From Ruminiclostridium josui JCM 17888 (GTDB lineage Bacteria; Bacillota; Clostridia; Acetivibrionales; DSM-1351): DNA of 64,000 nucleotides. The stretch is from positions 2,848,001 to 2,912,000 of the forward strand of contig NZ_JAGE01000001.1 in the NCBI RefSeq assembly GCF_000526495.1, in the 5' to 3' direction. A program made the translations under genes and the position numbers. The notes beneath the pieces are model-generated. The model did no database searches. It saw only the letters and a program-made list of their open reading frames with translations, and had not been told where the DNA came from. The first letter of the stretch is position 1, and each line of letters starts with the position of its first letter. This document shows, piece by piece, positions 38,662-51,220 of this stretch.

Positions 38662-39759
38662 ATGATTTATAAAAAATACGGTAACACAGGCAAGGAAATA
38701 TCTGCAATAGGTTTTGGAGGTATGAGGTTTCCTAAAACCGGAGATAGCTACGACTATGATAAATGTGCAGAGATAGTAGTACATGCAAATGAACTTGGTG
38801 TAAACTATTTTGATACTGCACCGGGATATAATGATGACCATAGTGAATTTATTATGTCCCATGCTTTTAAAAACATGAAAAAGCCATTCTATGTTTCAAC
38901 TAAAAGCAGCCAAAAAGATGGCTCAAAATTACGTGAGCAGCTTGAGACATCTTTAAAGAGAATGAATCTTGAAAAGATTAATTTTTTCCATATATGGTGT
39001 ATCCTGAGTCTTGACGACTATAGAAGCAGGATGGTAAAAGGCGGTGCTTATGAGGCTGCCCTAAAGGCAAAAGAAGAAGGACTTATAGAACATATTGTAT
39101 TCTCAACCCATTGTACAGGAGACGAGATTGAAACAATAGTAAATGAAGGCTGCTTCGAAGGAATGACTGTGGGTTACAATATACTTAACTTCCCGTTCAG
39201 GCAAAAAGGTTTAGAAGCTGGTTATAAAAAGGGACTGGGTATAGCTACAATGAATCCCCTTGGAGGAGGTCTGATTCCTCAAAAGGCTGATTATTTTGAT
39301 TTTATCAGAAGTGAAGACGACAAAAACGTAGTTGATGCTGCTTTAAGGTTTAATGCTTCCCATGATGAAATAACCACCGTATTAGCCGGAATGAGCAGTA
39401 TTGAAGAGGTAGTTCAAAATTGCAAAGTTGGCGATAATCTGGTTAAAATTGAGCAAAGTAAATTAAAGGAAATTGAAGGTAGACTCTTTAATTCCATGGA
39501 TAAACTTTGCACAGGCTGCCGTTATTGTGAATACTGTCCAAAGAAAATACCTGTGTCAAAATATATGCTGTCATATAACAACCATATTCTTGGTAATACT
39601 CAGGAGGTTTTGAACAACATTAAATACCATTGGGGAATCAAGCAGGAGGATGTTAACAATTGTATAGAATGTGGCTTGTGCGAAAGAAAATGCACACAGC
39701 ACTTGCCAATAATAAACAGGTTAAAAGAAATTAGTGCATTTGAAGATGCAAGTAAATAA
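38662..39759 (+). CDS. Aldo/keto reductase with C-terminal ferredoxin-type cysteines
   Basis: A 365-residue protein: an aldo/keto reductase barrel (~1-270) beginning KKYGNTGKEISAIGFGGMRF, with the catalytic-region NYFDTAPGYN, then a C-terminal segment (~280-365) with CTGCRYCEYCP and CIECGLCERKC. The latter should hold [4Fe-4S] clusters, so electrons may come from ferredoxin as well as NAD(P)H. Substrate is unknown. It is a stand-alone unit ending at a strong terminator. Confidence 0.9.
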   Translation: MIYKKYGNTGKEISAIGFGGMRFPKTGDSYDYDKCAEIVVHANELGVNYFDTAPGYNDDHSEFIMSHAFKNMKKPFYVSTKSSQKDGSKLREQLETSLKRMNLEKINFFHIWCILSLDDYRSRMVKGGAYEAALKAKEEGLIEHIVFSTHCTGDEIETIVNEGCFEGMTVGYNILNFPFRQKGLEAGYKKGLGIATMNPLGGGLIPQKADYFDFIRSEDDKNVVDAALRFNASHDEITTVLAGMSSIEEVVQNCKVGDNLVKIEQSKLKEIEGRLFNSMDKLCTGCRYCEYCPKKIPVSKYMLSYNNHILGNTQEVLNNIKYHWGIKQEDVNNCIECGLCERKCTQHLPIINRLKEISAFEDASK

Positions 39760-39801
39760 GTTAATTTTACCATCAAACTTGATAACTAAGCTAACCCGTA
39801 T

Positions 39802-39849
39802 AAAATCAGCAGATTGCAAAAATATAATATTACAATCTGCTGATTTTTT
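39802..39849 (+). terminator. Strong terminator after the aldo/keto reductase gene
   Basis: AAAATCAGCAGATTG (39802-39816) pairs perfectly with CAATCTGCTGATTTT (39833-39847), followed by T residues. Confidence 0.92.
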
Positions 39850-40048
39850 GTATTCTTTTAACGAAATATCCTAATAATTCCTTGAAATAAATTCCAAAAA
39901 CCTTATTTATAACTTAATTTCAGATATTGTATTTCTATATAAACATTGGCAGAAGGAATTCCTCTGGCTAGAATTATATTGTCAAAAAAATAACAATGAT
40001 AGCTGATAAGTAAATGCACTTTACAAGTACTTGAGGAGGGAAAACAAA

Positions 40049-40522
40049 ATGGATGATTGCAAATGCAGTCTGGTTGACGGGATTTTAAACAAGTATGACA
40101 ACAATAAATCGAACCTGATAGCGATTTTACAGGAAATCCAGAATGAATACAAATATTTGCCCGAGGATGTTTTGAATTACGTAGCTGGAAAGCTGGAGAT
40201 TAATCTCTCAAAGATATTCAGTGTAGCTACTTTTTACGAAAACTTTTCTTTGGTACCTAAAGGAAAATACATAATAAAGGTATGTGACGGTACAGCGTGT
40301 CACGTTAGAAAATCAATTCCTATTTTAAATGCAATGAGAAAAGAACTGGGTCTGTCTGAAAGCAAACACACTACAGATGACAAGCTGTTTACAGTTGAAA
40401 CAGTTTCCTGCTTGGGGGCCTGCGGATTAGCCCCGGTTATTACAATAAATGATAAGGTATATGCAAAAATGACGCCGGATTCAACAATAGAATTAATAAA
40501 GACTTTGAGGAGTGAAGGATAA
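40049..40522 (+). CDS. hydC: HydC: NuoE-like [2Fe-2S] subunit of trimeric [FeFe]-hydrogenase
   Basis: ATG 40049 follows GAGGAGGGA; an in-frame TTG at 40031 precedes that site. The 157-residue protein is a NuoE-type subunit with cluster cysteines in CDGTACHV and CLGACGLAP. It passes electrons between the NAD(P)-binding and catalytic subunits of a soluble, probably electron-bifurcating, hydrogenase. It is first in a tight three-gene operon and overlaps the next gene by one base (TAATG). Confidence 0.93.
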   Translation: MDDCKCSLVDGILNKYDNNKSNLIAILQEIQNEYKYLPEDVLNYVAGKLEINLSKIFSVATFYENFSLVPKGKYIIKVCDGTACHVRKSIPILNAMRKELGLSESKHTTDDKLFTVETVSCLGACGLAPVITINDKVYAKMTPDSTIELIKTLRSEG

Positions 40523-42393
40523 TGAAAATTAATAATTTGCAAGAATTTAAAGCCTTTTCTGACAGGTCGGCACAGGCACTTGAAAAGCAAAAAAAGAAGG
40601 TTCTGGTGTGTGCGGGAACAGGTTGCGTAGCCGGAGGGTCATTAGAGATATACAACAGAATCAAAGAGCTTATAAATGAAAAAGGCCTTCTGGTTGATCT
40701 TGAACTGGATTACGAAAAAGAAGGAATAGGAGTAAAAAAGAGTGGCTGCCACGGTTTTTGTGAAATGGGGCCTTTGGTAAGAATAGAACCTGAAAATTAC
40801 TTGTATTTAAGAGTTCAGATAGATGATTGTGAAGAAATCGTAAACAAAACCCTTATGAATAACGAAGCTGTTGAAAGACTTATGTATACAGCGGACAACA
40901 AAGTATATAAGGCACAGGAAGACATCCCTTTCTATAAAAAGCAAACAAGAATGGTTCTGAAAAACTGTGGAAGCATCAATGCCGAATCCTTTGCAGAATA
41001 TGTTGCAAAGGGAGGCTATCAGGCCTTGGGTAAAGCATTATTCGAAATGGAGCCACAGGAAGTATGTCAGTCCATACTGGATTCCAACCTTAAAGGAAGA
41101 GGGGGCGGAGGTTATCCAGCAGGGAATAAATGGAAACAAGTATTAAAACAGAACAGCGAAATTAAATACGTTGTTTGTAACGGTGACGAGGGTGACCCTG
41201 GAGCATTCATGGACAGAAGTATAATGGAAGGTGATCCTCACGGTGTAATCGAAGGTATGACTATTGCCGGGTATGCAACCCAGAGTACTGCCGGATACAT
41301 ATATGTTAGAGCAGAATATCCTCTTGCGGTAGAAAGACTGAGGATAGCCATTGAAGACGCAAGAAAGCACGGAATGTTGGGTGAGAATATACTAAATTCC
41401 GGATTTTCATTTGATATAAACATAAACAAAGGTGCAGGGGCCTTCGTTTGCGGTGAGGGTAGTGCATTAACTGCTTCAATAGAAGGCGAAAGAGGAATGC
41501 CAAGAGTTAAGCCTCCAAGAACCGTTGAAAAAGGACTTTGGGGAAAGCCAACTGTACTAAATAATGTAGAAACATATGCAAATGTTCCTTTAATTATAAA
41601 TAATGGAAGTGAATGGTATAAAGGTATTGGGACTGAAAACAGTCCGGGTACAAAAGCATTTGCCATAACAGGTAACGTTAACAATACCGGATTAATAGAA
41701 GTTCCTATGGGAACAACCCTAAGAGAAGTAATTTTTGATATCGGAGGAGGTATCAAGAATGACAAGAAATTTAAAGCCGTTCAAATAGGAGGCCCTTCAG
41801 GAGGATGCCTCACAGAAGAACATCTGGACTTACCACTGGACTTTGATTCACTAAAAAAAGTAGGAGCAATGATAGGTTCAGGGGGACTCGTTGTAATGGA
41901 TGAAGACACCTGCATGGTTGAAGTTGCAAGGTTTTTTATGAACTTTACACAAAACGAATCCTGCGGTAAATGTGTACCATGTCGTGAAGGAACCAAGAGA
42001 ATGCTTGAAATTCTTGAAAAGATAGTAAACGGAAAAGGTACTAAAGAAGACCTTGATTTACTTGAGGAACTGGCAGATACCATAAGCAGTACGGCATTAT
42101 GCGGATTGGGTAAGTCAGCTGCAAGCCCTGTTGTAGGTACATTGAAGTATTTCAGAGAAGAATATTTGGAACATGTTATAGATAAGAAGTGCAAAACACA
42201 TACCTGTAAGGCTTTGGCTTCTATAGTTATAGAAAAAGATAAATGCAAGGGCTGCAGTAAGTGTGCCAGAATATGTCCTGTTCAGGCAATTGAAGGAAAG
42301 ATTAAGGAGCCGTATACAATTAATCAGTCAAAATGTATCAAGTGCGGTGCCTGTTTGGAAACATGTCCATTTGCAGCAATAAAGGAGGCGTAA
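40522..42393 (+). CDS. hydB: HydB: NuoF-like flavoprotein subunit of trimeric [FeFe]-hydrogenase
   Basis: The 623-residue subunit has an N-terminal [2Fe-2S] thioredoxin-like domain (~30-120; CAGTGCVAGG, CHGFCEMGP), an NADH/FMN domain (~150-400; GRGGGGYPAGNKWK, CNGDEGDPGAF) and an SLBB-type region. The NuoF [4Fe-4S] motif CGKCVPCREG follows, and at the end two ferredoxin motifs (CKGCSKCARICP, CIKCGACLETCP). The FMN site is where NAD(P)H and ferredoxin electrons are merged or split in bifurcating hydrogenases. The bifurcating mode is family knowledge, not shown by the sequence. Confidence 0.94.
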   Translation: MKINNLQEFKAFSDRSAQALEKQKKKVLVCAGTGCVAGGSLEIYNRIKELINEKGLLVDLELDYEKEGIGVKKSGCHGFCEMGPLVRIEPENYLYLRVQIDDCEEIVNKTLMNNEAVERLMYTADNKVYKAQEDIPFYKKQTRMVLKNCGSINAESFAEYVAKGGYQALGKALFEMEPQEVCQSILDSNLKGRGGGGYPAGNKWKQVLKQNSEIKYVVCNGDEGDPGAFMDRSIMEGDPHGVIEGMTIAGYATQSTAGYIYVRAEYPLAVERLRIAIEDARKHGMLGENILNSGFSFDININKGAGAFVCGEGSALTASIEGERGMPRVKPPRTVEKGLWGKPTVLNNVETYANVPLIINNGSEWYKGIGTENSPGTKAFAITGNVNNTGLIEVPMGTTLREVIFDIGGGIKNDKKFKAVQIGGPSGGCLTEEHLDLPLDFDSLKKVGAMIGSGGLVVMDEDTCMVEVARFFMNFTQNESCGKCVPCREGTKRMLEILEKIVNGKGTKEDLDLLEELADTISSTALCGLGKSAASPVVGTLKYFREEYLEHVIDKKCKTHTCKALASIVIEKDKCKGCSKCARICPVQAIEGKIKEPYTINQSKCIKCGACLETCPFAAIKEA

Positions 42394-42399
42394 ATAACA

Positions 42400-44079
42400 A
42401 TGGGAACTATGATAATTGACGGACAGATGGTTGAATATACCGATGAAAAAAATATACTGGCAGTAATAAGAAAAGCAGGTATTGAGCTTCCGACCTTCTG
42501 CTACCACTCAGAGCTCAGTGTTTACGGTGCGTGCAGAATGTGTATGGTTGAAGATAAATGGGGCGGCACCATAACCTCATGTTCAACGCCTCCAAAGGAT
42601 GGAATGGAGGTATGGACAAATACAGATAAGCTTAAAAAACACAGAAAAATGATATTGGAGCTTCTTCTTGCAAACCATGACAGAGATTGTACAACCTGTG
42701 AAAAGAGCGGAAGATGCAAGCTTCAGGAAATAGCTTTAAAAGTTGGAGTAAAGAAAATAAGGTTTGGACAAGAAAAGAAAGAAATGCCTATAGATGATCT
42801 TGGTCCATCGATAATCAGAAATCCAAACAAGTGTATACTTTGTGGAGACTGTGTAAGAGCTTGTCAGGAAATTCAAGGTGTAGGGGTACTGGATTTTGCT
42901 TACAGAGGATCAAATCTTCAGGTAACAACTGCATTTAATAAATCATTGCAGGAAGTGGATTGCGTTAACTGTGGTCAGTGCAGGGTTGTTTGTCCTACCG
43001 GAGCATTAATGATAAAGAAAGATATTGACAGAGCATATGAGGCACTTCAGAACAAAAATAAGCGTGTAATAGCTCAGATAGCTCCCGCAGTACGTGTTGC
43101 AATCGGAGAAGATTTCGGACTTCAACCTGGTGAGATTTCAATGGGTAAGATTGTAGCAGCACTTAGAAAGTTGGGCTTTGATCAGGTATTTGACACTGCT
43201 GTTGGCGCTGACTTGACTGTTATAGAAGAAGCGGAAGAACTCATGGATAGAATTCAGAGAAAAGAAAAGCTGCCTTTGTTCAGTTCATGCTGCCCTGCTT
43301 GGTTTAAATACGCAGAGCAAAAACATCCTGAACTTATGGAAAATGTGTCTTCATGTCTGTCTCCACAGCAGATGTTCGGAGCAGTTATAAAGGAACAGCT
43401 TAAAAAGGAACAGTCTTCTGATGAAAAAGAGAATATTGTAATTGCAATAATGCCGTGTACTGCAAAAAAATATGAAGCTGCAAGACCTGAAAATGCAATA
43501 AACGGTGAAAGACAGGTGGATATGGTTATAACCACACAGGAGTTAGCAATTATGATACAGGAAAACGGTATTGTGTTTAATGAACTTGAAGACGAAGCCG
43601 TTGACATGCCTTTCGGATTTACCAGTGGAGCAGGTGTAATATTCGGTGTCAGCGGAGGTGTATCCGAGGCAGTACTTCGTTACTATTATAAGGAAAGAAA
43701 CGCTTCAACCCTGAAAAGTATTTCATATTCAGGAGTGAGAGGTATGGAAGGTGTTAAGGAAGCAACAGCTGAAATTGACGGAAGAATAGTAAGAATTGGA
43801 GTAGTTCACGGTCTTAAAAATGCTGAAAAACTTATTAGAAAAATTAAAAAAGGTGAAGAAAAATTCGATTTTATTGAAGTAATGGCTTGTCCTGGAGGTT
43901 GTATAGGCGGTGCGGGACAGCCGATTCCACAGAATGAAAATGTAAGAAAATTAAGAGCAAAAGGTATATACAAGGTAGATAAGTCTTTACCCATCAAACG
44001 TTCTGATGACAATCCTACTATAGATGCTTTGTATAATGGCATTCTAAACAGTAACAGACATATTCTTCACAGAGACTAA
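42400..44079 (+). CDS. hydA: HydA: catalytic [FeFe]-hydrogenase subunit
   Basis: The 559-residue protein has a [2Fe-2S] domain (CYHSELSVYGACRMC), a His-ligated cluster segment (HDRDCTTCEKSGRC), two [4Fe-4S] motifs (CILCGDCVRACQ, CVNCGQCRVVCP) and the H-cluster domain. H-cluster signatures are SSCCPAW (Cys297/298), MPCTAKKYE (Cys353) and MACPGGCIGGAGQP (Cys497/501). The first signature starts with Ser rather than the more usual Thr; the proton-relay Cys is kept. It reduces protons to H2 or the reverse. A terminator 22 bases downstream closes the operon. Confidence 0.95.
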   Translation: MGTMIIDGQMVEYTDEKNILAVIRKAGIELPTFCYHSELSVYGACRMCMVEDKWGGTITSCSTPPKDGMEVWTNTDKLKKHRKMILELLLANHDRDCTTCEKSGRCKLQEIALKVGVKKIRFGQEKKEMPIDDLGPSIIRNPNKCILCGDCVRACQEIQGVGVLDFAYRGSNLQVTTAFNKSLQEVDCVNCGQCRVVCPTGALMIKKDIDRAYEALQNKNKRVIAQIAPAVRVAIGEDFGLQPGEISMGKIVAALRKLGFDQVFDTAVGADLTVIEEAEELMDRIQRKEKLPLFSSCCPAWFKYAEQKHPELMENVSSCLSPQQMFGAVIKEQLKKEQSSDEKENIVIAIMPCTAKKYEAARPENAINGERQVDMVITTQELAIMIQENGIVFNELEDEAVDMPFGFTSGAGVIFGVSGGVSEAVLRYYYKERNASTLKSISYSGVRGMEGVKEATAEIDGRIVRIGVVHGLKNAEKLIRKIKKGEEKFDFIEVMACPGGCIGGAGQPIPQNENVRKLRAKGIYKVDKSLPIKRSDDNPTIDALYNGILNSNRHILHRD

Positions 44080-44101
44080 GAAACATTAAAATTATATTTT
44101 T

Positions 44102-44146
44102 ACAGATGTGGCTAAAAGATTAAAAGTCTTTGGCCTCATCTGTTTT
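44102..44146 (+). terminator. Terminator after the hydrogenase operon
   Basis: ACAGATG (44102-44108) pairs with CATCTGT (44137-44143), with further pairing of GGCTAAAAGA and TCTTTGGCC inside, then TTTT. Confidence 0.8.
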
Positions 44147-44191
44147 AAAAAAATTAATTGTTAGCCTATAAGGCAAAAGGAGGATATTATA

Positions 44192-44377
44192 ATGAATAAG
44201 GAAAATAAAATGTTGTGTGACGTAGCAGGTAATAACATTAGCATTTGCATGCAGTTAATGATGGTTGATGAAGCAAAAACCGATATGGAGTACTGCTGTA
44301 ATAGCTGCAATAAATCATACTGTGAATTAAACCCTATGGTTTTAGGTATGGTACCCGCATTTTCAGGACGTAAATAG
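44192..44377 (+). CDS. Small cysteine-rich protein, unknown function
   Basis: A 61-residue protein with a strong AAAAGGAGG site. It has six cysteines, four clustered in YCCNSCNKSYCE, suggesting metal binding. I recognise no family. It lies between the hydrogenase operon terminator and the promoter of the sensory hydrogenase unit, so it may be expressed alone. Confidence 0.65.
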   Translation: MNKENKMLCDVAGNNISICMQLMMVDEAKTDMEYCCNSCNKSYCELNPMVLGMVPAFSGRK

Positions 44378-44439
44378 GCTATAGGCTTAAGAATAAAGAC
44401 CTTCATACATATAATTAGATTTTTAGTAGCTAAATGGAT

Positions 44440-44468
44440 TTGACATAAAAAATTATATAATTTAAAAT
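44440..44468 (+). promoter_or_regulatory. Sigma-A promoter for the sensory-hydrogenase unit
   Basis: TTGACA (44440-44445), a 17-base spacer and TAAAAT (44463-44468) lie about 40 bases before the start of the [2Fe-2S] protein gene. Confidence 0.65.
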
Positions 44469-44508
44469 TATATTGTTATTTGTTTAACAAACATAGGCGG
44501 TGGAATAT

Positions 44509-44769
44509 ATGCTTGATATATATGTTTGCGTTGGTAGTTCCTGCCATCTCAAGGGATCTTATCAGATAATTAACTGCTTTCAAAGAATGATTAAGGAAAA
44601 CAATCTTGAAAGTAAAGTTGAGTTAAAAGCATCCTTTTGCATGGGACATTGCACAACAGGTGTTTGCGTTAAAATAGGCGATACTTTTTATAGTGATGTA
44701 GGCGCAATAAATGCTGAAAGTTTCTTTAATGAGAAAGTATTTAACACAATTGAAGGCAAGAAGGCATAG
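44509..44769 (+). CDS. Thioredoxin-like [2Fe-2S] ferredoxin
   Basis: The start is ATG 44509; the in-frame GTG at 44500 lies inside the GGCGGTGG site. The 86-residue protein has CVGSSCHLKG and CMGHCTTGVCV, the four-cysteine pattern of NuoE-like [2Fe-2S] domains. It probably carries electrons for, or from, the sensory hydrogenase encoded next. Confidence 0.88.
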   Translation: MLDIYVCVGSSCHLKGSYQIINCFQRMIKENNLESKVELKASFCMGHCTTGVCVKIGDTFYSDVGAINAESFFNEKVFNTIEGKKA

Positions 44770-44855
44770 TGCAAATTATCTCAAATTACATAGGACTACA
44801 GACATAAATATACTACTAACTGCATAAGAGCCGTCAGGGCTATGGAGGCGACTTT

Positions 44856-46580
44856 ATGAGCATAATTCAATTTAAAGAAGCGAACTGTAAAAACTGTTAT
44901 AAATGTATACGAAGCTGCCCTGTAAACGCTATTGCATTTAAAAACGAACAGGCTGAAATCATACATGACGAGTGTATGCTTTGTGGAATTTGCCTTACGG
45001 CATGTCCTCAGAATGCAAAAAGTGTTAACAGTGATGTTGAAAAAGTTAAAAAGTTTATACAGAAACGTGAAAAAGTTTATGTGAGTCTTGCACCTTCATT
45101 TATTTCTGCATTTGACCATGATGAAAAGTGGATTTATTATGCCCTGAAAAAGCTCGGATTTACACATATAGAAGGAACAGCCAATGGTGCTTATCAGGTA
45201 TCAAGGCAGTATGAAAGTCTTTTGAAGCAGAAGCAGATGAAAAACATCATAACCAGCTGCTGCTCATCAATAATATTATTAATAGAAAAATATTATCCTC
45301 AGCTCTTGGATCAGCTTGCTCCGGTAGTTTCTCCCATGATAGCTCATGCTAAAATGCTCAGGGAAACATATGGACAAAGAATAAGAGTTGTATTTATAGG
45401 ACCTTGTATTTCAAAGAAAGAAGAATATAATGACCTTCAAAATGACAGTCAAATTGATGCTGTACTAACTTTTGATGATTTGGATAAGTGGTTTGAGGAA
45501 GAAGGCCTGTATGAGTCAGATGAAATTATTGACGGTATAAAAGGCTTTGATACATCAGCGAGAATATATCCCATACCTGGCGGTATCTTAAAAACTATTG
45601 ACAGAAAATACAAGAAAAATTACAGATCTATTAGTGTAGATGGTGTTGAACGATGCATGGATGTTCTCCAATCCATAGTAGAAGGTGATATTGAAAATTA
45701 TTTCATTGAAATGAGCAGCTGCAAAGGAGGCTGCTTGGGGGGGCCATGCATGAAACATGTACCTGGAGGATTTCTCACTGCAAGAGAGAGACTTTTAAAC
45801 TATGCAAAAAGGACAGGAATTCAAACGAATTCGGCGCTGACAAACTCTGTAATGGCTTTGACTAAGGTTGATTTAAAGAAGAAATTCGTTGACAGGTCAA
45901 AGAAACTGGAAGTACCGTCAGAGGCAGTAATACAAGGTATATTAAATAGTATTGGAAAATTCAGTAAGGATAAAGAGCTAAACTGCGGAGCTTGTGGTTA
46001 TCATTCCTGCAGAGAAAAGGCTATAGCCGTATTCCACGGAAAGGCACAGGTTCATATGTGTCTGCCCTATATGAGAGAAAGGGCAGAGTCTATTTCAAAT
46101 ATTATTATAAATTATACACCATATGCAATTTTTGCTCTGGATGAGAGCCTTAAAATACAAGAGCTTAACAAGTCTGCCCAACAGATGTTCAACCTGGGAG
46201 CCAGAAACATGAATGGAAAGAGTATTTTGGAGATACTCCCCTGTGATGGCTTTGAACAGGTGTTGGAAGGTGCTGAAAATGTGTATGATGAAAAATATGT
46301 TTATGAAAAATACGGTATGGTGGTAAAGCAGTCCATTATAAACGTAAAACAGCATAATACTGTTATAGTTATAATAAATGATATCACTAAAGAGGAGGCC
46401 CAGAGGCAGAAAATTCTGGAAAGTCGTTCTCAGAATATAGATATTGCTCAAAAAATTATGGAAAAACAGATGACGGTGGCTCAGGAAATCGCCAGTCTGC
46501 TTGGTGAAACTACTGCAGAAACAAAGGTGGCTTTAACCAAGCTTAAAAAATCAATTATGTCAGAGATGGGTGAATTATAG
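44856..46580 (+). CDS. hydS: HydS-type sensory [FeFe]-hydrogenase with PAS domain
   Basis: The 574-residue protein has two N-terminal [4Fe-4S] motifs (CKNCYKCIRSCP, CMLCGICLTACP) and an H-cluster domain with divergent signatures: TSCCSS (Cys135/136, Ser instead of Pro), GPCISKKEE and SSCKGGCLGGP. A further Fe-S motif follows (CGACGYHSC, near 375-400), then a PAS domain (~415-515) and a helical tail. This layout matches the proposed sensory group C hydrogenases, thought to sense H2 or redox state. It is followed with a one-base overlap by a PP2C-type phosphatase, its likely output. Confidence 0.88.
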   Translation: MSIIQFKEANCKNCYKCIRSCPVNAIAFKNEQAEIIHDECMLCGICLTACPQNAKSVNSDVEKVKKFIQKREKVYVSLAPSFISAFDHDEKWIYYALKKLGFTHIEGTANGAYQVSRQYESLLKQKQMKNIITSCCSSIILLIEKYYPQLLDQLAPVVSPMIAHAKMLRETYGQRIRVVFIGPCISKKEEYNDLQNDSQIDAVLTFDDLDKWFEEEGLYESDEIIDGIKGFDTSARIYPIPGGILKTIDRKYKKNYRSISVDGVERCMDVLQSIVEGDIENYFIEMSSCKGGCLGGPCMKHVPGGFLTARERLLNYAKRTGIQTNSALTNSVMALTKVDLKKKFVDRSKKLEVPSEAVIQGILNSIGKFSKDKELNCGACGYHSCREKAIAVFHGKAQVHMCLPYMRERAESISNIIINYTPYAIFALDESLKIQELNKSAQQMFNLGARNMNGKSILEILPCDGFEQVLEGAENVYDEKYVYEKYGMVVKQSIINVKQHNTVIVIINDITKEEAQRQKILESRSQNIDIAQKIMEKQMTVAQEIASLLGETTAETKVALTKLKKSIMSEMGEL

Positions 46581-47752
46581 TGAGCCTATATATTGATGTA
46601 AGTTACGAAAGTATAAATAAATATAGAGAAGAATTATGCGGAGACAAGGTTGAAATTATTAGAAGCCCCGATTCCGTTGTAGTGGTTTTGGCAGACGGAC
46701 TTGGAAGCGGTGTGAAGGCAAATATTCTTGCAACTCTGACATCAAAAATAATAGGTACAATTATGTCAAATGGTCTGGATATAGAAGAGGCTGTTAATAC
46801 GGTAGCCAAAACTCTTCCTGTTTGTAAGGAGAGAGGGGTTGCATATTCAACTTTCTCCATAATACAGATATTTAATAATGGTGAAGGATACTTGGCCGAG
46901 TTTGATAATCCTTCTGTAGTAAGGCTGCGAAAAGGTAAAATAATGAGCCTGGAGACAGAAAGCAGGGTTGTTAATGATAAACTCATAAAAGAAGCCAGGT
47001 TTAAAGTCAGTCCTGATGACTTGTTTGTAATGATAAGCGACGGAGTTATTCATGCCGGCATAGGTCAGACATTAAATCTTGGGTGGCAGTGGGAAAATGT
47101 CAGTGATTACATACAAAGGACCTATAAAAAGGATGCATCTTCTAAGACACTTGCAAAACTTCTTTTGGCAGCCTGTGACAACCTTTATTCCCATGAACCC
47201 GGCGATGACACTACGGTTGTTACTCTTAAAGCAAAAAAACCTGTGAAGCTGAACCTGATGATAGGACCGCCTGTGGATTCTTCACGAGATGAGGAGATTG
47301 TATCTCGATTTATAGCAAACGAGGGGAAAAAAGTAATTTGTGGAGGTACTACTTCTCAGATTGTTGCCAGAGTTTTAGGAAAGGAAATTAAGACGTCAAT
47401 AGAATACTTTAATCCTGCGGTTCCTCCTACAGCAGAGATAGAAGGTATTAACCTGACTACAGAGGGAGTACTTACCCTTAGAAAAACACTTGATTTGCTT
47501 AAAGCCTGCGTATCGCCTGAAAGTGGTATGGGAGATATGCTGAAACTTAATAAAAAGGATGGTGCTTCAAGGCTTGCAAAAATGCTCCTTGAGGAGAGTA
47601 CAAGTATATATTTTTTTGTTGGAAGAGCAATGAATCCTGCACATCAGAATCCTGAATTTCCACTCAATATGGGAATGAAATTCAAGCTGGTGGAAGAACT
47701 GGCCGCATTGCTTACACAAACGGGAAAACATATAAGTATAGAGTATTGCTAG
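46580..47752 (+). CDS. PP2C/SpoIIE-type serine phosphatase
   Basis: GTG 46580 overlaps the hydS stop by one base. The 390-residue protein has an N-terminal PP2C-type phosphatase domain (~1-215) with metal-binding VVLADGLGSGVKAN and GDDTTVVTL. The C-terminal half (~220-390) is not recognised. Coupling to hydS implies that the phosphatase conveys the hydrogenase signal by dephosphorylating a partner protein; the partner is not visible. Confidence 0.87.
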   Translation: MSLYIDVSYESINKYREELCGDKVEIIRSPDSVVVVLADGLGSGVKANILATLTSKIIGTIMSNGLDIEEAVNTVAKTLPVCKERGVAYSTFSIIQIFNNGEGYLAEFDNPSVVRLRKGKIMSLETESRVVNDKLIKEARFKVSPDDLFVMISDGVIHAGIGQTLNLGWQWENVSDYIQRTYKKDASSKTLAKLLLAACDNLYSHEPGDDTTVVTLKAKKPVKLNLMIGPPVDSSRDEEIVSRFIANEGKKVICGGTTSQIVARVLGKEIKTSIEYFNPAVPPTAEIEGINLTTEGVLTLRKTLDLLKACVSPESGMGDMLKLNKKDGASRLAKMLLEESTSIYFFVGRAMNPAHQNPEFPLNMGMKFKLVEELAALLTQTGKHISIEYC

Positions 47753-47767
47753 GGAGGGGGAGCTTTC

Positions 47768-49243
47768 TTGGGTCTTAGGACAATACATTTAAAACTTCAT
47801 AAACCCAGTAAGCTTAAACGTGAAATTATTCAAAAAGCATTTGAAAATTATAATAATGCATTTAATTATTTATTAAAAACTGCTTTTGATAATATAGATG
47901 AAATTGAAAGTAATTATAAATCCCCTAAAGGGACTTACAGTACACTGTCTCTTTCAAAATGGATAGACAGTAAAAGGTCGAAGGAATTGAATAAGTTTGA
48001 TGTTCAGCCTTTCAAGGACTCCTTAAAGTTTGACTTTGGAATGACCATGGCAAGTTATTTTGCTCAGAAGCAAACAAACCCTGATATGGTGTTTCCGAAT
48101 TTCAAGCAGGATAATACTCAAGGAAATGAAAAGTTGAGACCCATATACTTTTGCAGGTATGACACAAAAAGAAGTTTTTGTCTCCTATATGATCCTGACG
48201 ACAACAAGTACTTTGCTAAACTGTTCCTGATGAATGTAAAAAATGCAAAGGTACGTAATATATCAGCAAATAAAAGAGAACTTATATATATATCCAAAAA
48301 ACCCGAGCCTGCCAAAAGTCTAAAAAGGGAAACTTTTATTGTAGTTCCTCTTTCATTCGGGAAATGGCAGGAAAATATGCTTAGGCAAGCCGTTGAAAAG
48401 CCTGAAATACTTAGAACAGCTCGCTTGTTGTGCAGGAATAACGAGTACTTTCTGAGCATGAGTATAAATCTTCCGGAGGAGCAGGAAGTAAAAACTACCA
48501 CTTTTATGGGTGTTAGCAGGGGTATAAAAAATGATATTAATTACACGATTGTTGATGAAAAAGGAAACTCAATTATAAAGGGAAGTCTTCAAAATTGCCG
48601 AGAATCAAAGGATAGAAAACAAATAATATGCAAGATGGCAAATGCAATAGCAGATATAGCTTTAAAAAATAAATCAATGGTAATTCTTCAGAACCTTGTG
48701 GGCAAGGGGGACAAACTCAGTTGGAGTGAAGGAGGAACTGTACACAAACCCGTTTATGGTTGTAAAATGTACAATGACCTTGTAAGAGTACTGGAATACA
48801 AGCTTCCCCAAAAAGGATTGCCGATTCCTGCGAAAGTAAGTTCTGTTGATATTTTCCATACATGTTGTGTATGCGGAAGCAACACCAGAAAAAACAGGTT
48901 TTCAGAAAACATGTTTATCTGCACAACCTGTGGAGCCAGCTATAGTATAGATGAACTTGGCAGCAGAAATCTTGCCGTAAAACTCATAAAGTATGAAAAT
49001 ACTACCTTCAAGTTGAAGGCAAGAAGGACAAGCGAAGGTATGTACCTGAATAATGAACTTATAGGGTTGGATATATTTGTTCACAAGAATGAAAATCCTT
49101 ACGAACGGCTGAAGGAAGAGATAAGGAATTTACTGGAGAAAAAAGAGGATAATTATATTAACTCCAAACTTAATTTTAAGGATATAAAAAGTATTATTGA
49201 TAAATTAGTAAAAAGCAATTTTGCAAATATAGAAATAATTTAA
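47768..49243 (+). CDS. TnpB-like protein with degenerate RuvC active site (domesticated?)
   Basis: The 491-residue protein has the TnpB C-terminal layout: RuvC-I, RuvC-II, LEYKLPQKGLPI, a zinc ribbon (C366/C369 and C385/C388) and RuvC-III. RuvC-I reads MGVSRGI with Ser250 where TnpB has Asp; RuvC-II reads ILQNL with Gln308 for Glu; RuvC-III keeps Asp395 but has Leu for the Asn in DxN. It should not cut DNA but may still bind RNA and DNA. The N-terminal region is longer than in typical 370-400-residue TnpB. The start is TTG behind GGGAGGGGG, 15 bases after the phosphatase stop, in the same transcript. No TnpA or transposon ends were seen. Confidence 0.78.
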   Translation: MGLRTIHLKLHKPSKLKREIIQKAFENYNNAFNYLLKTAFDNIDEIESNYKSPKGTYSTLSLSKWIDSKRSKELNKFDVQPFKDSLKFDFGMTMASYFAQKQTNPDMVFPNFKQDNTQGNEKLRPIYFCRYDTKRSFCLLYDPDDNKYFAKLFLMNVKNAKVRNISANKRELIYISKKPEPAKSLKRETFIVVPLSFGKWQENMLRQAVEKPEILRTARLLCRNNEYFLSMSINLPEEQEVKTTTFMGVSRGIKNDINYTIVDEKGNSIIKGSLQNCRESKDRKQIICKMANAIADIALKNKSMVILQNLVGKGDKLSWSEGGTVHKPVYGCKMYNDLVRVLEYKLPQKGLPIPAKVSSVDIFHTCCVCGSNTRKNRFSENMFICTTCGASYSIDELGSRNLAVKLIKYENTTFKLKARRTSEGMYLNNELIGLDIFVHKNENPYERLKEEIRNLLEKKEDNYINSKLNFKDIKSIIDKLVKSNFANIEII

Positions 49244-49246
49244 TTT

Positions 49247-49323
49247 TGTGCTTTTGCTGCCGCACATTGCTTACAGAGTAAGCTTATATGTTAAAACATA
49301 TAAAAAAGTGCAGCTATCTAGTT
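49247..49323 (+). ncRNA. Candidate guide-type RNA: tandem hairpins behind the TnpB-like gene
   Basis: Directly after the stop are three consecutive hairpins: TGTGC/GCACA (49247-49266), GCTTAC/GTAAGC (49269-49283) and TTATATGTT/AACATATAA (49284-49303). Twenty unpaired bases then lead to a terminator. TnpB guide RNAs lie at the 3' end of tnpB, so the position fits, but RNA function is inferred. Confidence 0.35.
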
Positions 49324-49367
49324 AAGAAGCCGCTTTTGGAATTAGTTTTCTGAAAGCGGCTTCTTTA
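49324..49367 (+). terminator. Terminator after the TnpB-like gene
   Basis: AAGAAGCCGCTTT (49324-49336) pairs perfectly with AAAGCGGCTTCTT (49353-49365), ending the sensory-hydrogenase transcript. The T-run is short. Confidence 0.82.
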
Positions 49368-49389
49368 ATGTAACTTTATGGAAAAAATA

Positions 49390-49418
49390 TTGACTATAGA
49401 CACATATTTTGATAAACT
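49390..49418 (+). promoter_or_regulatory. Sigma-A promoter of the riboswitch-terC unit
   Basis: TTGACT (49390-49395), a 17-base spacer and TAAACT (49413-49418) lie just before the riboswitch. Confidence 0.65.
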
Positions 49419-49427
49419 ATCATAAAA

Positions 49428-49517
49428 GTAAAGGGGAGTAGCTTGTAAGCGATAAAGTCAACAACCGGCTTAATTAAAGAGCCTGGCTTTATTCTCCACA
49501 TGGGAAGCAAGACCTTG
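49428..49517 (+). promoter_or_regulatory. yybP-ykoY (Mn2+) riboswitch
   Basis: The conserved core AAGGGGAGTAGC starts near 49431. AAAGTCAACAACCGGC and the 3' GGGAAGCAAGACCTT follow in the order of the yybP-ykoY motif, which senses Mn2+. A terminator overlaps its 3' edge, and the downstream gene is a TerC-family membrane protein, a common target of this class. Confidence 0.9.
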
Positions 49518-49552
49518 AATGTAGTGCTTTTATACATTCAAGGTCTTTTTGT
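49510..49552 (+). terminator. Riboswitch expression-platform terminator
   Basis: AGACCTTGAATGTA (49510-49523) pairs with TACATTCAAGGTCT (49533-49546), followed by TTTT. Its 5' arm includes the aptamer's last conserved bases, so ligand binding should decide whether it forms. Confidence 0.85.
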
Positions 49553-49632
49553 TTATATATATCTGCAATAAATTGTATGAATTATATATAGACTGGCAAT
49601 ATTAAAATAAAAACTAACTAGGGGGATAAGAA

Positions 49633-50496
49633 ATGTCTACTAAAAAAGCACTAAAATGGGTTGGATTCTGGATGGCATTAGCCATAATATTTAATATCGG
49701 CGTTTTGCTGATTGAGGGTCCTGCCAAAGCATCAGAATTCCTTGGAGGCTATGTAATTGAATTAAGTCTCAGTGTTGATAACCTGTTTTTGTTCCTTATC
49801 TTATTTTCAAGCTTTGGAATACCGCCTGCCTATCAGAGAAGAGTTTTAAACTATGGAATACTTGGAGCTATAGTTTTAAGACTGATATTTATAGTACTGG
49901 GAATAACTCTTGTTAACAAAATTCACTTTATTCTGTATATCTTCGGAGTAATATTGATAATAAGCGGCTGCAAGATGATGTTTGGTCATGAAAAGCCTGT
50001 GGAACACAAGGATAATAAAGTATTAAAGATTATGGGCAAGTTTTTACCAATGACGGACAAGATGCATGAAGAGAGATTTTTTATTAAAGAAAACGGTAAG
50101 AGATATGCAACTCCTCTTCTGGCAATACTTGTACTTATTGAATCTTCAGATATCCTGTTTGCTATAGACTCAATACCTGCTATTTTTTCAATATCAACTG
50201 ACCCATTTATAGTTTATACATCAAATATATTCGCCATATTAGGACTCAGAAGCTTGTATTTTGTTCTTGGTGCATTACAGGAAAGATTCAAGTATGTGAA
50301 ATACGGTGTAGCACTTATACTTGTATTCACAGGTGTAAAACTTGGTATTTTGTTCTTTGATCTTGAAATACCTATACTTATCTCACTGCTTACAATATTT
50401 ACAATATTAGTAGGCAGCGTAATTTTCTCAGTATTTAAGTCAAAAAGTGAGGAAAAGAAGGAAAAAGAAATTAAGCTTAAAAAAGTAGATCTATAA
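49633..50496 (+). CDS. TerC-family integral membrane protein
   Basis: A 287-residue, multi-helix membrane protein with the TerC signatures ELSLSVDNLFLFLILF and IESSDILFAIDSIPAIF, whose acidic residues are thought to coordinate metal. TerC proteins under yybP-ykoY control are implicated in Mn2+ export. The tail is Lys/Glu-rich. The Mn2+ riboswitch directly upstream supports a role in manganese homeostasis. Confidence 0.92.
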   Translation: MSTKKALKWVGFWMALAIIFNIGVLLIEGPAKASEFLGGYVIELSLSVDNLFLFLILFSSFGIPPAYQRRVLNYGILGAIVLRLIFIVLGITLVNKIHFILYIFGVILIISGCKMMFGHEKPVEHKDNKVLKIMGKFLPMTDKMHEERFFIKENGKRYATPLLAILVLIESSDILFAIDSIPAIFSISTDPFIVYTSNIFAILGLRSLYFVLGALQERFKYVKYGVALILVFTGVKLGILFFDLEIPILISLLTIFTILVGSVIFSVFKSKSEEKKEKEIKLKKVDL

Positions 50497-50504
50497 AAAA
50501 GCAT

Positions 50505-50544
50505 AAAATGGCCTAAGAAGCATATGTACTTCTTAGGCCATTTT
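50505..50544. terminator. Bidirectional terminator between terC and a minus-strand peptide gene
   Basis: AAAATGGCCTAAGAAG (50505-50520) pairs perfectly with CTTCTTAGGCCATTTT (50529-50544). With A-run and T-run flanks it can serve both converging genes. Confidence 0.9.
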
Positions 50545-50546
50545 CG

Positions 50547-50666
50547 TTAGCAGTCATGATGATCATTTCCGCAGCAGCATGCAATAATGAAAATAATAAT
50601 CAGACCCCATATTATTCTTTCGTCGATACAGTTACATCCACCAAAGAAACCTTTCTTGTGAGACAT
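50547..50666 (-). CDS. 39-residue membrane peptide, YjcZ-like
   Basis: A short minus-strand gene with a strong GGAGGGAG site before ATG 50666. It encodes a Gly/Cys segment (FFGGCNC), a hydrophobic helix (IIWGLIIIFIIA) and CCCGNDHHDC. The Gly-Cys plus single helix layout resembles the YjcZ family of tiny sporulation-linked membrane proteins. The Cys/His tail could bind metal. It converges on the riboswitch-controlled terC gene and shares its terminator. Confidence 0.7.
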   Translation of the reverse strand: MSHKKGFFGGCNCIDERIIWGLIIIFIIACCCGNDHHDC

Positions 50667-50845
50667 AGGTATACAACTCCCTCCAAAGATTAATGATAAA
50701 CTTTTTAGCTTGGTAACTAAATGGCTAATAACATAGTATTCATTGAAGATTAATTGTGTTACACATCTTGAAATATTTGGTTAGCATTATGCGTTAAAGA
50801 AAATATAATAAAATATAAATCTTTTTACGTTATATGGAGGTATAT

Positions 50846-51220
50846 ATGAGGCTAATACGAAAAAAGAAGAGTAAGAATAAGTCCGCAAATGTAAAGCTTA
50901 CTGTTCCTGAAAAAAGTCTGTTAATACAAAAGCAGCATATAAATTACCATGAATATGAGGGGCAGACAGTAACAGTCTTTGTAAATTCCGGTGGCGCAGC
51001 GGGAAATGGGTTTACGGGGGTTTTACTGCTTCAAACGGACTCATATCTAAAGCTTTTAATTCTGCCGTCAGCACCACCCCAGTGTTCTTTAGGAAATGCT
51101 TGCGGCAGTAAAAATATTAATTATTCCTTCTGCACTCTCTGTCCTTACAACCAAACAATAGGGACAATAGCTGAGATTCCTCTTGAAGCCGTCACAGCCT
51201 TTGTACATAATATTACATAA
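50846..51220 (+). CDS. Conserved-looking hypothetical protein, 124 residues
   Basis: ATG 50846 follows ATGGAGG; the ATG at 50834 is part of that site. It has a Lys-rich N-terminus (MRLIRKKKSKNK), then a beta-rich domain with VTVFVNSGGAAGNGFTGVLL and four cysteines in CSLGNACGS and CTLCPYN, possibly a metal or disulfide site. I do not recognise the family. It stands between a minus-strand peptide gene and cca. Confidence 0.65.
   Translation: MRLIRKKKSKNKSANVKLTVPEKSLLIQKQHINYHEYEGQTVTVFVNSGGAAGNGFTGVLLLQTDSYLKLLILPSAPPQCSLGNACGSKNINYSFCTLCPYNQTIGTIAEIPLEAVTAFVHNIT

Follow-up and report, generated by a model that had tools for sequence, protein, structure and literature searches.

TnpB nucleases are directed by a guide RNA encoded 3' of the tnpB gene, and natural dCas12f systems act together with a dedicated sigma factor. 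The nuclease-dead TnpB-like proteins named TldRs silence genes using short guides with a 6-nt seed; according to the available text on them, the guide RNA is encoded adjacent to the gene and TldR homologs tolerate natural mismatches between guide and target (PMC13418256). As described there in part, the clades linked to fliC and csrA combine descent from TnpB, a dead RuvC site, an adjacent guide RNA, fixed linkage to a host gene and a short seed beside a TAM (PMC13418256).

Sensory [FeFe] hydrogenases bearing a PAS domain are encoded by the HydS/hfs operons of Ruminococcus albus and Thermoanaerobacterium, which have been linked to the control of adhE. In Thermoanaerobacterium, deletion of hfsA or of hfsB, the hydS homolog, increased the adhE transcripts, two- and threefold respectively; an effect of the pathway on adhE is thus reported, and a high ethanol yield requires wild-type hfsC and hfsD (PMC5707799, available sections). 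An RNA-guided component goes unmentioned in those sections, which leave the adhE linkage unexplained (PMC5707799).

Here we analyzed a 64,000-nt stretch of the genome of Ruminiclostridium josui JCM 17888 (the window), in which a gene for a nuclease-dead TnpB-like protein follows those of a sensory hydrogenase and a phosphatase. From the sequence comparisons presented below we favor, with a probability of roughly two in three, a reading in which the locus encodes an RNA-guided transcription factor that has been domesticated, probably acts as an activator and would tie H2/redox sensing to reductant-disposal genes. Our literature search found no report that connects TnpB with a sensory hydrogenase, the clade surveys of Wiegand 2024 and Altae-Tran 2023 lying outside the comparison. 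TldR is a known kind of protein; what is new here, as far as could be seen, is the hydrogen-sensing context, the cross-genus seed, the predicted regulon and the activator-like geometry.

Protein family and catalytic site

The protein, of 491 residues, is encoded by an open reading frame at 47768..49243 (+ strand), with a TTG start preceded by AGGGAGGGGGAG. The frame begins 15 nt after the end of the phosphatase gene, and both this gap and the ribosome binding site are as described in the first-pass annotation, which had regarded the protein as a TnpB relative on account of its zinc ribbon and RuvC layout. A profile search agreed with that assignment: residues 12–403 matched positions 6–387 of the 389-position NF040570 (guided_TnpB) model with an E-value of 5e-17, a match below the model's 100-bit cut-off, and the same model matched 16 of 17 scanned family members. 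A match to the Pfam family Cas12f1-like_TNB (E 3e-5) was slightly below its cut-off. An AlphaFold2 model (pLDDT 82.7, pTM 0.55) was compared with known structures using Foldseek, which returned Cas12f ternary complexes as top matches (E 4e-15) and a best TnpB match at E 1e-10; the list also included the dCas12f-gRNA complexes 9n9c and 9n9m, likewise of Cas12f-like proteins, which bear guide RNA. Judged by sequence and predicted structure, the protein is a member of the TnpB/Cas12f superfamily, with homology across the N-terminal part, the RuvC domain and the zinc ribbon. It shares its fold, zinc ribbon and RuvC layout with the nucleases AsCas12f, OsCas12f and the ISDra2 and ISFba1 TnpBs, from which it differs in its fixed chromosomal operon and in the loss of the RuvC-I aspartate in all 24 homologs.

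The catalytic site was assessed in alignments to Cas12f and TnpB chains and to a triad-intact relative, a TnpB encoded on a Pseudoalteromonas plasmid (L099:3536-5002, 27% identity) that carries the D, E and D residues in the motifs GIDRG, IED and ADIVG and thereby fixes the alignment of the dead positions. In line with the earlier assignment, the RuvC-I Asp is replaced by Ser250 and the RuvC-II Glu by Gln308, and Asp395 occupies the RuvC-III position. Across the 24 homologs the RuvC-I position holds Ser (16), Ala (4), Gly (2), Thr (1) or Val (1); the RuvC-II Glu is retained in two and otherwise replaced by Gln (16), Lys (3), Tyr (2) or His (1); and the RuvC-III position is evenly divided between Asp (12) and Glu (12). 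None of the 24 has an intact triad, and the loss of catalytic residues is thus conserved, a pattern that, together with synteny, had been proposed as support for domestication. All four zinc-ribbon cysteines are retained in every homolog, Arg251 is invariant, and the family alignment has a conserved C-terminal extension of approximately 85 residues after the zinc ribbon, to which no domain could be assigned. No transposase is annotated near the Pseudoalteromonas plasmid TnpB. A further relative (25.5% identity) is encoded in an unannotated stretch of the Pseudoalteromonas phage J2-1 (L100:3001-3915), and the RNA covariance model described below gave no match at the plasmid or the phage locus.

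Against four close orthologs the dN/dS ratio was 0.08–0.12, with values of about 0.1 in both the core and the C-terminal extension, which indicates that the gene is not a relic.

Locus and distribution

The gene follows hydrogenase genes on the + strand of the window. The predicted target operon hydCBA (40031..44079) encodes a multimeric [FeFe] hydrogenase, probably electron-bifurcating, in which HydA was recognized by domain scanning and HydB and HydC by sequence and position. It is followed by a gene for a small thioredoxin-like [2Fe-2S] protein (44500..44769; PF01257) upstream of hydS (44856..46580), which encodes a sensory [FeFe] hydrogenase combining Fe-S domains with a PAS domain (PF02906, PF04060, PF00989), and by the gene of a PP2C/SpoIIE-type phosphatase in the hydS operon (46580..47752; PF07228, E 1e-17). 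A Cys-rich protein of around 95 residues is encoded between the small [2Fe-2S] proteins in some hydABC-hydS operons of other genomes (L032:3099-3380, L033:16387-16695, L036:18171-18470).

Homologs of the TnpB-like protein were found in 10 of 11 genomes of the genus, 17 of 58 of the order and 14 of 391 sampled from the class, seven of the latter being new, giving a total of 24 genomes from 14 genera of one class. The copy in Ruminiclostridium papyrosolvens C7 is 89% identical, and the window's protein is the sole match in its own genome (an assembly of two contigs of 3,585,000 and 880,602 nt, C1 and C2, of which the second could be a second replicon or reflect an assembly gap). At every one of the 24 loci the gene is preceded on the same strand by those of HydS and the PP2C phosphatase; the family thus lies behind one gene pair and not in scattered elements, so that neither of the two refuting observations from the first-pass annotation that could be looked for, intact catalytic residues in orthologs or a location mainly inside mobile elements, was made. 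In seven loci (L032, L033, L035, L036, L071, L072 and L073) an adhE gene, identified by Aldedh and Fe-ADH domains and by similarity as encoding the aldehyde-alcohol dehydrogenase AdhE, lies between, and adhE was for this reason considered as a target. PP2C orthologs with at least 61% identity occur in the same 17 of 58 order genomes as the TnpB-like protein; four distant PP2Cs (48–49%) occur in order genomes lacking it, and one Ruminiclostridium genome (G003) lacks both the protein and its PP2C ortholog. Four hydS-PP2C operons without the TnpB-like protein (L249–L252) have an adhE gene in front of hydS, which makes the association of hydS with adhE broader than the RNA-guided part. In one genome (G033) the gene after the RNA described below encodes a radical-SAM activating-enzyme-like protein, possibly related to fermentation (L037:8076-8801).

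No transposase was apparent among the window's open reading frames around the gene, as noted before, or among seven domain-scanned downstream neighbors of the homologs, and no dedicated sigma factor was noticed among neighboring genes, few of which were domain-scanned. A TnpB relative with dead catalytic residues might be a functionless, decaying IS605 relic left behind the hydS operon. The frame is nonetheless open at the same place in 24 genomes of 14 genera, it is adjoined by a covarying RNA, and the four close ortholog pairs compared gave dN/dS values near 0.1, so a relic is barely credible. A relic or an IS element was ruled out by the single copy, the fixed position, the low dN/dS and the absence of a transposase among the scanned neighbors; compared with the TnpBs of IS605/IS607 transposons, which lie in mobile elements and often in scattered copies, the gene stands out by its single genomic copy and its identical operon position in 24 of 24 genomes. 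The domestication of a nuclease-dead TnpB in a hydrogen-sensing operon is thus supported by the sequence comparisons.

A structured RNA at the guide position

Directly behind the gene, an alignment with counts of pairs and compensatory changes delineated a structured RNA scaffold at 49248..49314 (+ strand), i.e. where the guide RNA of a TnpB or TldR would be encoded. It comprises a P1 helix (GUGC/GCAC, 49248–49251 with 49262–49265), a pseudoknot (GCUGC/GCAGC, 49256–49260 with 49310–49314), a P2 hairpin (CUUAC-AGA-GUAAG, 49270–49282) and a variable P3 hairpin. The scaffold is followed by a putative guide, UAUCUAGUUA (49315..49324), whose first five bases are the same in 23 of 24 homologs, and directly 3' of it by an intrinsic terminator hairpin (49326..49366) read by eye, with similar hairpins at other loci. 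Among the 17 members from the order, the sequence 3' of the gene repeats this arrangement with few changes, as GUGC-UUUUGCUGCC-GCAC, CUUAC-AGA-GUAAG, a variable hairpin, GCAGCUAUCU and then variable bases, and a terminator-like hairpin was seen by eye after the RNA in most of these loci.

The RNA lies within about 170 nt downstream of the gene in all 24 genomes, starting about 165 nt past the stop codon in L037 and nearer to it in others. Its 3' end, GCAGC-UAUCU, is near-invariant: UAUCU directly follows the pseudoknot strand in 23 of 24 genomes, the exception being UAUCC in G048. The tail past this pentamer is not conserved, and the terminator is reached within 9–11 nt in many loci. The two pseudoknot strands vary in concert, reading GCUAC/GUAGC in L027 and L031 and GCUGU/ACAGC in L034. 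Pairing held in 98.7% of the pair cells of 16 rows, with 11 compensatory cells, as against at most 55% in slid controls, and four of five covariation measures exceeded all 500 shuffles; the fifth, which counts further pair types, did not (281/500).

A covariance model built from the 17 order genomes with the protein found one RNA copy in each of these and none in the 41 genomes without it. At all seven loci outside model building the RNA was likewise present behind the gene, with E-values from 9e-16 to 7e-5, among them two from GC-rich members with only about 34% protein identity; an eighth match, in L071 (E 0.56), was regarded as chance. A search of Rfam over 39000–51000 gave nothing at gathering score, and the 3' flank of the gene had only weak matches far below the cut-off. 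We infer from these comparisons that the RNA is the protein's own guide RNA and would be bound by it. Further downstream, at 49421–49576, there is a weak match to the Mn2+ (yybP-ykoY) riboswitch (17.1 bits against a gathering score of 45, E 0.01), which sits upstream of a TerC-like gene (49633–50496) and is perhaps a diverged but real riboswitch.

A promoter element matching the RNA tail

When the sequence upstream of hydC was searched for TATCT, a conserved block AAACC[G/T]TATCTA was found there. In a ranking independent of the RNA, CCGTATCT was the most shared 8-mer upstream of hydC, present in nine of 13 representatives hand-picked from 19 regions, using an upstream window of 400 nt. The pattern [AG]CC[GT]TATCT occurred in 11 of these 13 regions (mean 0.04 and maximum 1 in 300 dinucleotide shuffles), and in G207 the hydC site lies about 467 nt upstream, outside the 400-nt window. 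Among pentamers following CCN, TATCT ranked first in three promoter sets, at hydC (10/12, next 3), hydS (6/15, next 3) and adhE (4/6, next 1). Placed hydS sites were found in G055, G111, G137, G164 and G230, where no upstream hydABC reads into hydS, and a hydS match in G048 is without promoter geometry. Perfect TATCT is present at one or more placed sites in 20 of 24 genomes, the exceptions being the window's genome (G000), G033, G127 and G200. In the window itself the site, AAACC-T-TATTTATAAC, keeps its position upstream of hydCBA (39898..39913, + strand) and has one seed mismatch, TATTT for TATCT.

The exact 12-mer AAACCGTATCTA is rarer in the 58 order genomes than its reversed control (27 against 59 occurrences). 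Seven occurrences fall in the 17 genomes with the protein, five of them upstream of hydC or hydS and two in open frames, and the other 20 are spread over 15 genomes without it, 17 of them in long open frames. The idea of a longer guide aimed at a target within the locus was not borne out, as matches of at least 10 nt in 17 loci reached only 10–12 nt beyond the RNA itself and terminator repeats in L038. The pattern TATCTAGTTNAAG gave seven matches in the genus, three in the RNA, three in one conserved coding sequence, presumably secF-like, and the last where a coding frame of G003 ends.

The correspondence between guide and site is thus a seed-length match to UAUCU(A/G), flanked at hydABC, hydS and adhE by a conserved ACC[G/T] and mismatched in several genomes including that of the window. 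In G048 the guide reads UAUCC and the hydC site TATCT, and guide and site differ at the sixth base in G041, G055, G164 and G230; pairing would therefore have to tolerate mismatches, or the site is read partly by protein. Beyond the seed, agreement between guide and site in 15 genomes summed to 23, compared with 13.3 on permutation (p 0.001, or 0.02 without G137 and G111), the statistic having been picked after the data were seen. Some unusual letters of a guide are found again in the site of its own genome: guide and site both read TATCTTA in G026, and G111 shares TATCTGACAT (guide TATCTGACATTT, site TATCTGACATAA).

The element could alternatively be read by an ordinary DNA-binding protein, in which case the TnpB-like protein and its RNA would do something else (e.g. 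act in sequestration or in controlling the transcript of hydS) and the UAUCU match would be coincidental. A protein-read operator could yield the same pattern, seed positions 4–5 of the guide are mismatched at several sites, and the two most divergent members, G127 and G200, carry the RNA but lack the element at hydC. The hydS promoter of G033 gave no match, and its hydABC was not located. Against this explanation, the pentamer that starts the guide in 23 of 24 RNAs is the top pentamer in the three promoter sets and has the TAM on the correct side, and odd guide letters recur in the same genome's site in G026 and G111. The element is also asymmetric and has a single orientation, with 27 sense occurrences against two antisense ones that are misplaced and both lie in one hydS region of close relatives. 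Moreover, in four distant relatives whose hydS loci lack the protein (G011, G019, G023 and G024) no site was found upstream of HydS or the small gene, or upstream of HydC in the one locus showing it, and these genomes had no placed non-coding site elsewhere, a weak control given the distance of these relatives. We consider a purely protein-read element quite improbable and proceed with an RNA-guided factor as the preferred reading.

Site placement relative to promoters

In the window, the predicted hydCBA promoter (39946..39974, + strand; -35 TTGGCA, 17-nt spacer, -10 TAGAAT) begins 48 nt downstream of the start of the site. The predicted transcription start is covered by TTGTCAAAAAAATAACAA (39979..39996, + strand), found by pattern match. 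We take this and similar boxes to be Rex-like operators. By pattern, such a box is present in 16 of 21 promoters, mostly over the predicted start, and similar boxes are present in most of the hydC, hydS and adhE promoters read.

The geometry was examined for 37 hand-listed sites by taking the best sigma70-like promoter within +15 to +75 of the first base of the site. The -35 box was located at +29 (4 sites), +46–48 (11 sites) or +56–60 (22 sites), so that every site begins 29–60 nt ahead of this box, without overlap. The hydC spacing is 47–48 nt in Ruminiclostridium and 58–60 nt in other genera, i.e. one helical turn apart, and tandem second sites at 29 nt occur in G111, G137, G164 and G230. 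Across 52 scanned promoter regions, a promoter scoring at least 10 lies downstream of 26 of the 27 CCNTATCT sites, all 26 falling into the three spacing bins, compared with 38 of 149 other CCN positions; the bins were set after the 37-site list had been seen, and related genomes were counted separately.

In the available text on engineered bacterial CRISPR activation, effective sites fall in windows of 2–4 bases that recur with a period of 10–11 bp between -60 and -100 (PMC7113249). The phased upstream sites found here resemble this requirement, sharing the one-turn period within about -60 to -100, and on this ground an activator is favored over a promoter-blocking repressor; the engineered system uses a SoxS activation domain, whereas the one proposed here would be natural. 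From sequence analysis, the placement resembles that of an upstream activator site more than that of a promoter-blocking site.

The first-pass annotation had pictured RNA-guided control at a hydrogen sensor on the model of TldR repressors. The RNA-guided part has gained ground, through a conserved RNA at the guide position whose tail matches a promoter element, and the repressor mode has lost it, as phased sites upstream of -35 would rather suit an activator. A TldR in the published sense, repressing from the same upstream sites by DNA bending or looping or by exclusion of an activator, with Rex acting separately, is unlikely, though it deserves serious consideration: gene silencing by way of short guides and a 6-nt seed is what the known nuclease-dead relatives of TnpB do (PMC13418256, in part), and the rise in adhE upon deletion of the hydS homolog could mean that the pathway represses (PMC5707799, in part). 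A polymerase-blocking complex would, however, be expected over the promoter, and the sites lie upstream of it, none of the 37 overlapping the -35 box and 26 of 26 scanned sites being in helical phase, a pattern that fits the windows and period of engineered CRISPR activation (PMC7113249, available text).

adhE and further candidate targets

In nine of the 10 Ruminiclostridium genomes with the protein, the element is present at the adhE promoter, as perfect TATCT in four and with a single change in five (three TATCA, two TATTT). It was absent at adhE in the window's genome, at the second adhE-like copies of G005 and G007, and in G003, which is without the protein. Downstream of the RNA in two loci, a gene for a small protein (90 residues, L033:8261-8533; 93 residues, L038:11097-11378) has a promoter with the same site, spacing and layout as the other predicted targets; a Pfam scan of the 90-residue protein gave no match.

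A search for more Ruminiclostridium regulon members using ACCKTATCTAD was unproductive, as the pattern was rarer than its reversed control in 11 of 11 genomes (12 sites in the window's genome), and 33 of 40 sites read were within open frames of more than 120 codons. When a promoter was required in addition, counts over the 24 genomes were near the control in most, among the matches listed. Also among the matches listed, non-coding CC[G/T]TATCT occurs in G002, G005, G006 and G007 (L253:2094, L254:2346, L255:2366 and L256:2400) in the gap that separates a second hydABC-like operon from a divergent gene. The site is oriented toward the divergent gene, where a Cys-rich open reading frame of about 71 residues was called in three of the four. 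These genomes are closely related, so the conservation of the site says little; it may be a further target or may reflect mere close relatedness.

Discussion

A disarmed transposon gene-cutting protein appears to have been turned, together with a small RNA, into a regulator that recognizes the promoters of hydrogen and alcohol genes. What points to an RNA-guided factor is that the RNA tail UAUCU equals a conserved promoter element, which is flanked by a TAM-like sequence, faces one way only and keeps a phased distance to the promoter. In the proposed mechanism, the TnpB-like protein would bind the RNA encoded behind its own gene, and a seed of 5–7 nt would pair with TATCT(A/G) beside an (A)ACC[G/T] TAM, approximately 65–95 nt ahead of where transcription of hydABC, the hydS operon, adhE and the 90-residue protein gene is predicted to start. 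The bound complex may then contact RNA polymerase and raise transcription, against or together with Rex. HydS would sense H2 or redox state, and its partner PP2C phosphatase would set how active the complex, or a partner of it, is. Contact with RNA polymerase or with the signaling pathway would most likely be made through the C-terminal extension.

Compared with the fliC- and csrA-linked TldRs, the present family is linked to a hydrogen sensor and a phosphatase, its seed is conserved across genera, and it has several predicted targets, which would amount to a metabolic regulon; its sites lie upstream of -35 in helical phase, and the protein carries a conserved C-terminal extension. The fuller proposal, of a natural RNA-guided activator without a dedicated sigma factor, in which a dead TnpB with a fixed seed of 5–7 nt serves a HydS-PP2C-coupled hydABC/hydS/adhE regulon class-wide and beside Rex, is put forward tentatively, at slightly short of even odds.

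If it acts as an activator, the dead TnpB would work like a natural form of CRISPR activation, and it may offer a small natural scaffold for bacterial gene activation. The proposal makes testable both a regulon run by an RNA seed of 5–7 nt and a contact between a dead TnpB and RNA polymerase. If true, the system would offer a candidate output, so far missing, for hydrogen sensing by HydS/Hfs, a pathway known to affect the yield of ethanol and H2 in fermenting bacteria, and RNA-guided transcription control would extend from flagellin switching to the core energy metabolism of the host.
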